A program made the translations under genes and the position numbers. The notes under the pieces were generated by a model. The model saw nothing but the letters and a program-made list of their open reading frames with translations. It was not told where the DNA came from and searched no databases. Positions 24,960-28,517 of a stretch of 64,000 nt of DNA are shown piece by piece (the stretch's first letter is position 1; each line of letters begins with the position of its first letter). Source of the DNA: Cupriavidus sp. AU9028 (lineage in GTDB: Bacteria > Pseudomonadota > Gammaproteobacteria > Burkholderiales > Burkholderiaceae); contig NZ_JAIMCG010000007.1 of NCBI RefSeq assembly GCF_019795295.1, forward strand, positions 62,001 to 126,000, written 5' to 3'.

Positions 24960-26189
<1,230 letters not shown>

Positions 26190-26204
26190 GTTCGACTCGA
26201 TGCG

Positions 26205-26238
26205 AAAAAAGGGCGGACCAGCCGGTGCGACGGCCCGC
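26205..26238 (-). terminator. Terminator-like hairpin in the argF-argG gap
   Basis: On the minus strand a 7-bp stem with one G-U pair (26232-26238 with 26213-26219) is followed after CC by six U residues (26205-26210). Only 15 nt separate the U-tract from the argG ATG, leaving no room for a promoter between them, so any argG transcript must pass through it. It may be the argF terminator, an argG attenuator, or both. Confidence 0.6.
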
Positions 26239-26315
26239 ATACCAGATTAGGAAATGCGAAAGCCGCTATTCTGACATGCCGGCCCGGGCTTGGGCGCCAC
26301 TTGCCGGCAAGCGTG

Positions 26316-27239
26316 TCAGTAGCGGCCGCAGAGCAGGTATTCCATCAGCGCCTTCTGCACATGCAGGCGGTTCTCGGCTTCGTCCCAGACCACGCTCTTC
26401 GGCCCGTCGATCACCTCCGCCTCGACCTCCTCGCCGCGGTGCGCCGGCAGGCAATGCATGAACACCGCGTCGTCGCGGGCCCGGTCCATCATCGCCGTGG
26501 TGACCATCCACTTCTGGAAGGCGCGCTTGCGCTCCTCGTTCTCGGCTTCGAATCCCATGCTGGTCCACACGTCGGTGGTGACCAGATCGGCACCGGCGCA
26601 GGCTTGCAGCGGATCGTCGAAGACCTTGACGAGGCCGGCTGCGGTAGCGGGCACCATGGCCGGATCCAGCTGGTAGCCCGGCGGCGCGGAGAAGTGGAAG
26701 GTGAAACCGAGGCGCTCGGCCGCCTGGATCCAGGTGTACGCCATGTTGTTGGCGTCACCGATCCAGGCCACGGTCTTGCCGCGGATGCTGCCGCGGTGCT
26801 CGATATAGGTGAAGACGTCGGCGAGTACCTGGCAGGGGTGATATTCGTTGGTCAGCCCGTTGATGACGGGCACCCGCGAGTGCGCGGCAAAGCGTTCGAT
26901 GATCTCCTGGCCGAAGGTGCGGATCATGATGATGTCCACCATGCGGGAGATCACCTGCGCGGCGTCCTCGATCGGTTCGCCGCGGCCGAGTTGCGAATCG
27001 CGCGTGCTGAGGAAGACCGCGTGGCCGCCCAGCTGGTGGATGCCGGCCTCGAACGACAGGCGCGTGCGGGTCGAGTTCTTCTCGAAGATCATCGCCAGCG
27101 TGCGGTCGTGCAGAGGGTGCCAGGTTTCGTAGTTCTTGAACTTGGCCTTCAGGATCCGCGCGCGGTCCAGCAGGTACTCGTACTCTTCGGCACCGAGATC
27201 GCTGAACTGCAGGTAATGCTTGATCGGAGTTGGGCTCAT
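26316..27239 (-). CDS. argF: Ornithine carbamoyltransferase
   Basis: Makes citrulline from ornithine and carbamoyl phosphate in arginine synthesis. The 307-aa protein has the carbamoyl-phosphate motif FEKNSTRTRLSFE near 50-62, the HPCQ-containing segment near 130 (NEYHPCQVLAD), and the ornithine-binding HCLPAHRGEEV near 268. Length fits the anabolic trimeric enzymes (about 310 aa). The family start MSPTPIKHYL is at 27237-27239 and has no recognisable Shine-Dalgarno because a terminator-like hairpin and U-tract end one base before it. An in-frame ATG 16 codons upstream is an alternative. Confidence 0.96.
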   Translation of the reverse strand: MSPTPIKHYLQFSDLGAEEYEYLLDRARILKAKFKNYETWHPLHDRTLAMIFEKNSTRTRLSFEAGIHQLGGHAVFLSTRDSQLGRGEPIEDAAQVISRMVDIIMIRTFGQEIIERFAAHSRVPVINGLTNEYHPCQVLADVFTYIEHRGSIRGKTVAWIGDANNMAYTWIQAAERLGFTFHFSAPPGYQLDPAMVPATAAGLVKVFDDPLQACAGADLVTTDVWTSMGFEAENEERKRAFQKWMVTTAMMDRARDDAVFMHCLPAHRGEEVEAEVIDGPKSVVWDEAENRLHVQKALMEYLLCGRY

Positions 27240-27240
27240 A

Positions 27241-27313
27241 AAACAAAGAAGGCGGCTCGATGGGGACACCGTCCATGAAATCGTCATGAAATCCGGTGCC
27301 GCGGAGCCGCCTT
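27241..27313 (-). promoter_or_regulatory. Candidate attenuator in the argF leader
   Basis: On the minus strand AAGGCGGCTC (27304-27313) pairs perfectly with GAGCCGCCTT (27249-27258), with a further CACCG/CGGTG pairing inside; the stem is followed by CTTTGTTTT running into the argF ATG. No minus-strand gene lies upstream to be terminated, because rpsT is closed off by the terminator at 27976-28004. The structure therefore lies in argF's own leader. Confidence 0.6.
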
Positions 27314-27344
27314 TCGCGTCGCTTGCGCAATGTGAGTGACAGGA

Positions 27345-27373
27345 ATCATAAGGGATTATTCCGGCTTTGGCGA
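27345..27373 (-). promoter_or_regulatory. Candidate promoter of argF
   Basis: On the minus strand TCGCCA (27368-27373, four of six matches to TTGACA) is separated by 17 nt from TATGAT (27345-27350, five of six). It would start a transcript near 27338, giving a leader of about 100 nt that contains the hairpin described at 27241-27313. Confidence 0.45.
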
Positions 27374-27426
27374 GCCTGCGCCCCTGTCATCCCGGCGCCA
27401 CGCCGCCCGGGCGAGCTTATGCGGCA

Positions 27427-27445
27427 GTCTTATATAAGATATAAT
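27427..27445 (+). promoter_or_regulatory. TCTTATATAAGA palindrome overlapping a TATAAT box
   Basis: The 12-bp palindromic core TCTTATATAAGA (27428-27439) touches a perfect TATAAT (27440-27445). The core is identical to the one between icd and rluE. An operator in the -35/-10 spacer is typical for repression. The box reads towards the DUF3579 gene, about 175 bp away; the -35 match is poor. Confidence 0.5.
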
Positions 27446-27619
27446 ACTCGCTGATTCACGCGGGGCCCGGCAGACCTTGCCTGCGCCCGCATCCGGCATC
27501 AAAAGTGCCCCCGCTCCCCGTCGCCCCACCAGCGATCCGATGTGCGAACCCTTCGCCGCCGGGCGCGTCCAACGGGCGCCCCGTCGCGGGTTTCCCGTCG
27601 AGTCACAAGCGCAGTCTCC

Positions 27620-27919
27620 ATGAATTCCAACGTTCGCCAGTACTTCATCCAGGGCATCACCAAGGAAGGCCGGACCTTCCGTCCGAGCGACTGGGCTGAA
27701 CGGCTGTGCGGCGTGATGGCGCAATTTCGTCCGAAGGGAGACACCGGCGACCCTCGCCTGACGTACTCCCCCTATGTCCGCCCGGTGATGTCCGGCGGCG
27801 TCAAATGCGTGGTGGTCGATGCACGGCTGCGCGACATCGAGCCCAAGGCGCTGGACTTCGTGCTGAACTTCGCCCGCGACAACAACCTGCAGCTGGTCGA
27901 GGCCTGCTCGCTGGAGTAA
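27620..27919 (+). CDS. DUF3579-family protein
   Basis: Predicted 99-aa cytosolic protein, recognised as DUF3579, a family I know mainly from betaproteobacteria. Distinctive segments are YFIQGITKEGRTFRPSDWAERL (split across about 8-29), a central PYVRPVMSGGVKCVVVDARL, and the C-terminal VEACSLE. It shows alternating beta and alpha character, no signal peptide and no membrane helix. It sits between argF and rpsT, divergent from argF and convergent with rpsT. An AT-rich palindrome and TATAAT box lie upstream. Function unknown. Confidence 0.85.
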   Translation: MNSNVRQYFIQGITKEGRTFRPSDWAERLCGVMAQFRPKGDTGDPRLTYSPYVRPVMSGGVKCVVVDARLRDIEPKALDFVLNFARDNNLQLVEACSLE

Positions 27920-27975
27920 GACTTCGCGAACGATCGGTCGCTGGATCAGGGCGGAACAAGCGCCCGGACCAAAGC

Positions 27976-28004
27976 AAAAAGCCCGTCGCGAGGACGGGCT
28001 TTTT
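27976..28004. terminator. Bidirectional terminator between the DUF3579 gene and rpsT
   Basis: A 12-bp stem (27976-27987 with 27993-28004) consists of a GC core (GCCCGTC/GACGGGC) flanked by A5 and T5 runs, so it has a U-tract in both directions. It closes both convergent genes. Confidence 0.88.
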
Positions 28005-28048
28005 GTCTGTTCACCGCCGGCCAAGGCCAGCGGCGAACGAGCCGAAAC

Positions 28049-28315
28049 TCAGGCGGCCATTGCCTTGATCGCGGCCGACAGGCGCGACTTGTGGCGAGCG
28101 GCCTTGTTCTTGTGAACGATCTTCTTGTCGGCAATGCTGTCGATCACGCATTGCGACTGCTTGAAGATCTCGGCTGCGGCAGCCTTGTCGCCAGCGTCGA
28201 TGGCCTTGCGGACTGCCTTGACGGCGGTGCGCAGACGCGAGCGCAGGCTGGAGTTATGAGCGTTCTGGGCGACGGCTTGGCGCGCGCGCTTGCGAGCTTG
28301 TGCGGAATTTGCCAT
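28049..28315 (-). CDS. rpsT: 30S ribosomal protein S20
   Basis: Primary 16S rRNA-binding protein of the small subunit, 88 aa, very basic and helical. The N-terminal [14 protein letters not shown] and the C-terminal [18 protein letters not shown] are characteristic. It is monocistronic here, with a TTGCAC/TATAAT promoter about 100 bp upstream and a shared terminator downstream. In E. coli S20 represses its own translation through its leader; the 97-nt leader here would permit this, but that is inference. Confidence 0.98.
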
Positions 28316-28418
28316 TTTGAAATCCTGAATTCAGATGCGGTGCGTGCAGTTGCACATCGAGCGACCCGGCATGCACTGGCACACGAATCCGGAACGCAAC
28401 TATCCTTTGGAACCGGCG

Positions 28419-28448
28419 ATTATACACACAGAAAGATCGCCGGTGCAA
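28419..28448 (-). promoter_or_regulatory. Sigma-70 promoter of rpsT within an inverted repeat
   Basis: On the minus strand TTGCAC (28443-28448) and TATAAT (28419-28424) are spaced by 18 nt, pointing at rpsT. A 9-bp inverted repeat (28412-28420 and 28435-28443) straddles the element, its arms touching the -10 and the -35. Confidence 0.65.
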
Positions 28449-28517
28449 GACAGGGATGTAGGGGGCCGGCAACGCCGGTTCATCCTGCTGGCGGGAGGCG
28501 CGGCGAAGCCACATCCG

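Follow-up and report, generated by a model that had tools for sequence, protein, structure and literature searches.

Attenuation of the pyrBI type depends on a translated leader and on UTP-sensitive pausing. In attenuators of the his/trp/leu type, a biosynthetic gene is preceded by a promoter and a short leader, with a GC-rich hairpin and a U-rich tract immediately ahead of the gene. Excerpts of PMC5343134 describe the arginine regulator ArgR as strongly conserved across many gammaproteobacterial groups and missing from other classes. We did not find ArgR (PF01316) in the genome studied here (94.6% complete), and none of 148 relatives of the order carries it above the cut-off, with one sub-threshold fragment in G045. 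In B. cenocepacia, 82 5′ UTRs are reported to give short transcripts by processing or attenuation, with inspection limited to 5′ UTRs longer than 72 nt (PMC5688073, in excerpts). In its excerpted main text argF is not named, which means little because the argF leader predicted for B. cenocepacia (L092) is 68 nt long, below that cut. Excerpts of PMC4603805, PMC5688073, PMC8632094 and PMC2864571 name no argF leader, and a term search of PMC11109978 returned none. On how argF is controlled in these relatives, our search of paper listings and excerpts, largely outside subscription journals, found nothing.

The argF leader in the window

The window analyzed here, a stretch of 64,000 nucleotides, is Cupriavidus DNA, and the best named matches of its ArgF protein are from Cupriavidus as well. 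The features of the argF locus are the following.

26316..27239, minus strand: argF (ornithine carbamoyltransferase), an ORF with its start ATG at 27239 assigned by alignment with relatives
27345..27373, minus strand: predicted promoter, −35 TCGCCA (27373–27368), 17 nt, −10 TATGAT (27350–27345), from a sigma-70-like scan and conservation
27240..27338, minus strand: predicted argF 5′ leader of about 99 nt, its start placed by promoter spacing ∼7 nt past the −10 box and uncertain by a few nt
27300..27331, minus strand: near-invariant Cupriavidus segment, from before the 5′ arm to just past it, containing the start of an Arg-rich TTG frame (alignment A2 and codon table)
27304..27313, minus strand: hairpin 5′ arm AAGGCGGCTC (sequence, fold and stem-cell counts)
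27249..27258, minus strand: hairpin 3′ arm GAGCCGCCTT (sequence, fold and stem-cell counts)
27264..27300, minus strand: apical hairpin within the loop, limits approximate, differing among species in both sequence and length (loop of 4–64 nt)
27240..27250, minus strand: U-rich spacer TTCTTTGTTTT up to the argF ATG, no Shine-Dalgarno sequence, the first two T being part of the stem

Read on the minus strand, the two arms (27313–27304 and 27258–27249) form a perfect 10-bp stem, and the ATG at 27239 directly follows the U-rich spacer (27250–27240), just as the original prediction, made from the letters of this stretch, had described. The stem encloses a 45-nt loop with an inner hairpin of its own. 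An alternative in-frame ATG upstream of the argF start (27287) lies inside the hypervariable loop. The fold of 27345–27230 has a predicted energy of −40.4 kcal/mol (z −2.28), a value equally low in 6 of 200 dinucleotide shuffles. A terminator scan for short loops returned no site (1.6 expected), because the argF loop is 45 nt long and contains an inner hairpin. Rfam gave no match at gathering score in the window, none at E ≤1 for 27200–27460 and none at gathering score at the argF loci of five relatives.

The promoter element TCGCCA-17-TATGAT (27373–27345) agrees with the consensus at 9 of 12 positions and is the sole sigma-70-like match in 26000–28500 (0.5 expected). It is the candidate promoter of the original prediction, and the leader length expected there (∼100 nt) agrees with our estimate from promoter spacing. 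The neighboring upstream ORF (27542–27919), presumably a DUF3579 gene, is on the plus strand and directed away from argF; as had been noted, no minus-strand gene upstream is in need of a terminator.

A second stem lies between argF and argG on the minus strand: 7 bp (26238–26232 with 26219–26213), followed by six T (26210–26205) and located ∼15 nt before the argG ATG (26189). This element (26205–26238) may terminate argF transcripts, or it may be another leader terminator, belonging to argG. A TGTCAAAATAG-like element recurs upstream of argG in many Cupriavidus and Paraburkholderia-type genomes, with argG loci located by tblastn.

A predicted hairpin is conserved before argF in several genera

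Our set comprises the regions upstream of argF at 275 loci, with 240 different sequences in the last 110 nt; it is a chosen sample of best matches and picked stretches of longer lists. L262, which has no match to the argF start, and L002, a paralogue, were left out. Group names are labels assigned in this analysis from record titles or, for other genomes, from shared contigs and genus groupings; L040, named Ralstonia sp., falls into the genus grouping of the window and is counted with Cupriavidus. A leader was scored as having the hairpin when at least 6 consecutive pairs (G-U allowed), at least 4 of them G-C, enclose a loop of at most 75 nt, with the 3′ arm ending 5–17 nt before the ATG and at least half T in the first 11 nt past this arm. 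By this fixed rule, the hairpin and U-rich spacer precede the argF ATG in all unique leaders of Cupriavidus (53/53), Ralstonia (16/16), and the Paraburkholderia-type (43/43) and Trinickia-type (7/7) groups, in 20/23 Caballeronia-type and in 16/19 Burkholderia leaders. Small groups that pass are g13 (3/3), g4 (1/1), g16 (1/1) and the Oxalobacteraceae-like leaders (2/5). No leader passes in Pandoraea (0/4), the Polynucleobacter-type group (0/12), Mycetohabitans/Vallotia (g7, 0/3), the others of the order (0/44), or g2, g6, g15, g17, g18 and g23 (0/1 each).

At two Oxalobacteraceae-like loci (L103 and L242), CGGCGGC/GCCGCCG hairpins and a U-rich spacer adjoin the argF ATG, and the promoter pattern of the Burkholderiaceae is missing. 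Among the four reduced genomes of g7, where the promoter region is still recognizable, a hairpin has re-formed in L306 (identical in sequence to L109; z −2.9), L310 (identical to L218) has a weaker one (z −1.0), and L308 and L309 have no argF hairpin (z −0.3 and 0.1).

GC-rich DNA can pair by chance, and a functionless stem of this origin has to be considered. When everything except the last 9 nt was shuffled in the Cupriavidus, Ralstonia, Paraburkholderia-type and Burkholderia leaders, a stem score of at least 18 was reached by 232 of 2620 shuffled leaders (∼9%). However, 126 of the 131 real leaders reach this score, in several genera and at a near-fixed distance to the ATG, and only 1 of 81 other ATG starts in the window (44 approximate genes, from a greedy ORF list without argF) passes the hairpin test. 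Conservation makes chance pairing very unlikely, and we give a functionless stem next to no credence. Loss of the stem in relatives had been named beforehand as an outcome that would speak against the original prediction; the stem is kept over several genera, which favors function.

Promoter, spacer and start codon

The promoter pattern (T/C)CG(C/T)CA, 17 nt, TAT(G/C/A)(A/C/T)T is found in 47/53 Cupriavidus, 16/16 Ralstonia, 42/43 Paraburkholderia-type, 22/23 Caballeronia-type, 19/19 Burkholderia and 7/7 Trinickia-type leaders, and in 0/44 others of the order. It is thus more widespread than the hairpin, because it is kept in groups that fail the hairpin rule (g7, 3/3; g2, g6, g15, g17 and g18, 1/1 each). 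In one Cupriavidus leader (L118, genome G002), unrelated sequence stands in place of the usual −10 box, and leader and hairpin are intact.

The least-changing part of the leader adjoins the ATG. It reads GTTTT in 53/53 Cupriavidus and 16/16 Ralstonia leaders, and GTTTC in 37/43 Paraburkholderia-type, 17/23 Caballeronia-type and 16/19 Burkholderia leaders. In the Caballeronia-type group, the U-run beside the stem contains few T (median 2 of 6) and the hairpin is kept. Measured from the last stem G-C pair, the distance to the ATG is 11 nt in 49 and 12 nt in 3 of 52 Cupriavidus leaders, 11 nt in 16/16 Ralstonia leaders, 10 nt (34) or 11 nt (1) in 35 Paraburkholderia-type, 11 nt (15) or 10 nt (3) in 18 Burkholderia, and 10 nt (6) or 11 nt (1) in 7 Trinickia-type leaders; it ranges from 8 to 12 nt in 23 Caballeronia-type leaders, with 10 or 11 nt in 16 of them. 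This distance is near-fixed in Cupriavidus despite loop lengths of 4 to 64 nt. Both the stem-to-ATG spacing and the GTTTY motif could be inherited rather than selected.

A Shine-Dalgarno match of at least 4 nt is absent from all leaders of Cupriavidus (0/53), Ralstonia (0/16), Burkholderia (0/19) and the Paraburkholderia-type (0/43), Caballeronia-type (0/23) and Trinickia-type (0/7) groups. The claim that argF lacks this sequence is thereby confirmed for the window and extended to the hairpin genera. The match is present in 16/44 argF genes of other families of the order, in 0/4 Pandoraea, 0/5 Oxalobacteraceae-like and 2/12 Polynucleobacter-type leaders. Its absence is not peculiar to hairpin leaders, since Pandoraea and Polynucleobacter-type leaders, which have no hairpin, lack it or nearly so. 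Judged by sequence comparison, the conserved feature is a predicted hairpin at a near-fixed distance from a start codon without Shine-Dalgarno sequence, behind a conserved promoter, and it extends well beyond one genome.

Pairing in the stem and leader models

The Cupriavidus stem (53 leaders, 530 cells) contains 515 Watson-Crick pairs, 13 G-U pairs and 2 others, and changes within the genus are one-sided and nearly all to G-U. For the Burkholderia-type stem, we counted the 80 leaders that match the core pattern, with 16 non-matching leaders outside the count, and found 534 Watson-Crick, 3 G-U and 23 other cells among 560, most of the latter at the outermost pair. Stem pair 2 is A-U in 53/53 Cupriavidus and 15/16 Ralstonia leaders (G-U in one) and C-G in 79/80 Burkholderia-type leaders. 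Both arms are altered in a Paraburkholderia-type subgroup (L054, L059–L064 and L067) that still passes the hairpin rule; L220 and L221 are more divergent. A double change from CGCG/CGCG to CGGA/UCCG in L037 and L135 represents one event and is not relied on here.

In alignment A1, stem and apical hairpin are paired in 92.6% of cells, with a covariation score above all 500 column shuffles. Three pairs change on both sides, a number matched by 109 of 500 shuffles in which relatedness is not controlled, and the RNAalifold consensus of A1 consists of only 5 pairs, with the register shifted.

Searched with a sequence-only model of the Cupriavidus leader, the genome studied here gave a single significant match, at argF (1.1e-21; next 0.34). 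A structured model of the Burkholderia-type leader returned seven strong matches (≤1.1e-12) in the 148 relatives, all at argF leaders, and weak matches from 0.0019 up, one of which (G030, 0.026) is a Cupriavidus argF leader. Run with strict filters, the structured model gave no match in our own genome and missed its argF leader, so that the link between the Cupriavidus and Burkholderia-type leaders rests on position, promoter and stem core rather than on the model. A further, weaker match of the structured model (E 1.6e-4) is located away from argF, at G083:C103:103409-103495.

A possible gate at ribosome entry

The explanation that we favor, with somewhat less than even confidence and from comparative sequence evidence, is that a cis-acting hairpin in the argF 5′ leader gates argF expression, mostly at ribosome entry. 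The hairpin would form by default in the nascent leader. Located 10–11 nt before the AUG, in place of a Shine-Dalgarno sequence and with only the U-rich spacer between, the closed hairpin would take up the upstream portion of the 30S footprint. Efficient translation of argF would then require a bound factor, a small RNA or an arriving ribosome to open the hairpin. In Cupriavidus, which has the most U-rich spacer, some of the transcripts may also end at this hairpin. We infer formation of the hairpin in the cell, the gate, its signal and any trans factor; arginine as the signal is a guess from the function of the gene.

With the 5′ arm blocked, predicted pairing at −9..−1 and +1..+12 shows small changes without a consistent sign; closing of the start by the hairpin is thus not evident from folding. 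Occlusion of the start codon by folding, tried as a candidate mechanism, was rejected, as blocking the 5′ arm had no clear effect. A hairpin that gates ribosome entry, one of the two possibilities raised originally, is the best-fitting alternative.

A constitutive role would leave the same sequence trace as a gate. The hairpin could protect the mRNA end or pack the GC-rich leader, thus keeping a U-rich start without Shine-Dalgarno sequence open, with no regulation involved. In line with this, the 5′ arm is left free for the hairpin in Cupriavidus and Ralstonia, the content of the apical loop is free to vary, and the U-rich start itself is conserved. Start-region accessibility is, however, about equal with the arm blocked, and the motif occurs at one biosynthetic gene per genome (in our own genome, and in seven genomes by the structured model), which we would expect more usually of regulation. 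We consider an unregulated element of this kind rather unlikely.

Possible transcription attenuation

The hairpin and U-tract may alternatively be an intrinsic terminator, with arginine scarcity raising read-through via a putative factor, which we regard as possible but doubtful. The layout in Cupriavidus is terminator-like, with an A-run before the stem and a U-rich tract after it; four species with short loops (L037, L127, L135 and L039) resemble ordinary terminators, and the lack of a same-strand upstream gene in need of a terminator fits as well. The intrinsic-terminator pattern of a GC-rich stem followed by a U-run is present in the window and in Cupriavidus but poorly developed in the Caballeronia-type group, where the U-tracts are weak. 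Using a score of the d'Aubenton-Carafa type, with a threshold of 0, we obtained positive terminator scores in few leaders: 9/53 Cupriavidus, 1/43 Paraburkholderia-type and 1/3 scored Oxalobacteraceae-like leaders, and 0/16 Ralstonia, 0/23 Caballeronia-type, 0/19 Burkholderia and 0/7 Trinickia-type leaders. A low score does not exclude termination, because a long loop lowers it. The short transcripts from 82 5′ UTRs of B. cenocepacia, as given in excerpts of PMC5688073, are compatible with attenuation.

An attenuator might be switched by a competing structure. Burkholderia-type leaders contain a competing hairpin, GACGGC-GGC-GCCGTC, that overlaps the 5′ arm, with 88% of cells paired and 4 of 6 pairs changed on both sides, but its least conserved pair fails in 13 of 54 aligned leaders. 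Sequestration was taken as the average pairing of the 5′ arm at the stage when the 3′ arm is yet to be transcribed, in real leaders versus flank shuffles. It is above the shuffles in Burkholderia (0.80 versus 0.71), g13 (3 leaders, 0.71 versus 0.67) and g7 (2 leaders, 0.70 versus 0.66), not above them in the Paraburkholderia-type (0.61 versus 0.65), Caballeronia-type (0.60 versus 0.73) and Trinickia-type (0.68 versus 0.71) groups, and below them in Cupriavidus (0.43 versus 0.62) and Ralstonia (0.41 versus 0.63). By these folding models, Burkholderia leaders lean toward 5′-arm sequestration. In Cupriavidus and Ralstonia, the low nascent sequestration argues against an antiterminator, and the hairpin, its 5′ arm being kept free, seems made to form by default. 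An RNA-only antiterminator, apparent from folding in many of 20 chosen nascent leaders, was not retained outside Burkholderia, for want of support from the shuffle control.

RNA-based attenuation, the main suggestion of the original prediction, thus stands in part: stem and U-tract are conserved, but terminator scores are low, the 5′ arm is less sequestered than in shuffles in Cupriavidus and Ralstonia, and the Arg-rich frame discussed below is found in a minority of leaders outside Cupriavidus.

The Arg-rich leader frame

The frame starting at TTG 27330 reads TTG CGC AAG CGA CGC GAA AGG CGG CTC CGC. It has six Arg codons in positions 2–10 and no Shine-Dalgarno sequence before it, as originally observed, and no stop before argF, into which it is open. 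A ribosome stalled on these codons over the 5′ arm could keep the hairpin open in Cupriavidus, the gene then being controlled by ribosome-mediated attenuation.

A start followed by at least 3 Arg in the first 13 residues is found in 51/52 Cupriavidus leaders, a set without L118, which has no −10 box. The same pattern is present in 6/16 Ralstonia and 32/90 Burkholderia-type leaders, the groups being Paraburkholderia-type (18/35), Caballeronia-type (11/23), Trinickia-type (1/7), Burkholderia (1/18), g7 (1/3), g13 (0/3) and g16 (0/1). The conservation that had been proposed as a check on the frame is therefore seen within Cupriavidus, but it drops to a minority elsewhere, and even in this genus the frame is broken in 4 of 53 leaders (TTG lost in L019, frameshift in L017, L020 and L118) while the hairpin is intact in 53/53. 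As a mechanism shared by the hairpin genera, a leader peptide was rejected on these minority counts.

Within Cupriavidus, 35 of the 51 TTG frames end before the ATG, 32 of them 37–65 nt before it and past the 5′ arm; codon 2 also varies synonymously (CGC/CGT). Yet the remaining Arg codons are almost constant at the third position, as a constraint on RNA or DNA would give, and the frames end in all three phases, 14 of them overlapping the argF ATG and 2, including that of the window, without a stop in the first 60 nt of argF. The start is a TTG without Shine-Dalgarno sequence about 7–8 nt from the predicted transcript end. At the predicted +1, only 11/90 Burkholderia-type leaders have any start codon before the 5′ arm, a number that rises to 65/90 if transcription begins three nt earlier. 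Of the six Ralstonia leaders with an Arg-rich start, 4 have it upstream of the predicted +1, and the other 2 have one solely past the 5′ arm. Altogether, we regard ribosome-mediated attenuation in Cupriavidus as improbable.

Discussion

Our analysis makes the argF leader hairpin a good candidate for RNA-level control in Cupriavidus and several related genera, with a gate at ribosome entry as the tentatively preferred reading. A broader proposal is a family-wide RNA switch in Burkholderiaceae that lack ArgR, in which the hairpin would sense arginine status via a putative RNA-binding factor or small RNA and gate both read-through and translation without a Shine-Dalgarno sequence; we hold this to be rather unlikely. 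The hairpin is conserved and easily mutated, which makes argF control in relatives without ArgR directly testable, and the leader could be a clean case of Shine-Dalgarno-less initiation beside a stable hairpin.

The carA leaders L285, L286 and L287 (Paraburkholderia-, Burkholderia- and g6-type) have common blocks around CCCTAGCGCC and GTCGGCA-CAGGG. These blocks spread over ∼200 nt or more before the gene and may belong to a structured carA leader.

The argF leader resembles pyrBI in that a leader frame overlaps a terminator-like hairpin just before a transcarbamoylase gene, and differs from it in that the frame is not common across genera. ArgR and ARG boxes control argF and the same pathway in the E. 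coli type (PMC5343134, in excerpts); there, the regulator is a DNA-binding repressor, unlike an RNA hairpin, and it scores over the cut-off in 0/148 relatives. The carA motif, as described in excerpts of PMC8632094, is likewise a candidate structured leader directly before a carbamoyl-phosphate/arginine gene in betaproteobacteria; its hairpin is long and imperfect and shows little covariation. Unlike the argF hairpin, it precedes another gene, lies beside a predicted RBS and is found mostly in Polynucleobacter, where the argF hairpin scores 0/12. With attenuators of the his/trp/leu type, the argF leader has in common the promoter, the short leader, the GC-rich hairpin and U-rich tract just before a biosynthetic gene and, in Cupriavidus, an Arg-rich frame. 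It departs from them in that no leader peptide is common across genera, no antiterminator is supported in Cupriavidus and Ralstonia, and terminator scores are mostly low, while the hairpin is positioned 10–11 nt from an AUG that has no Shine-Dalgarno sequence.
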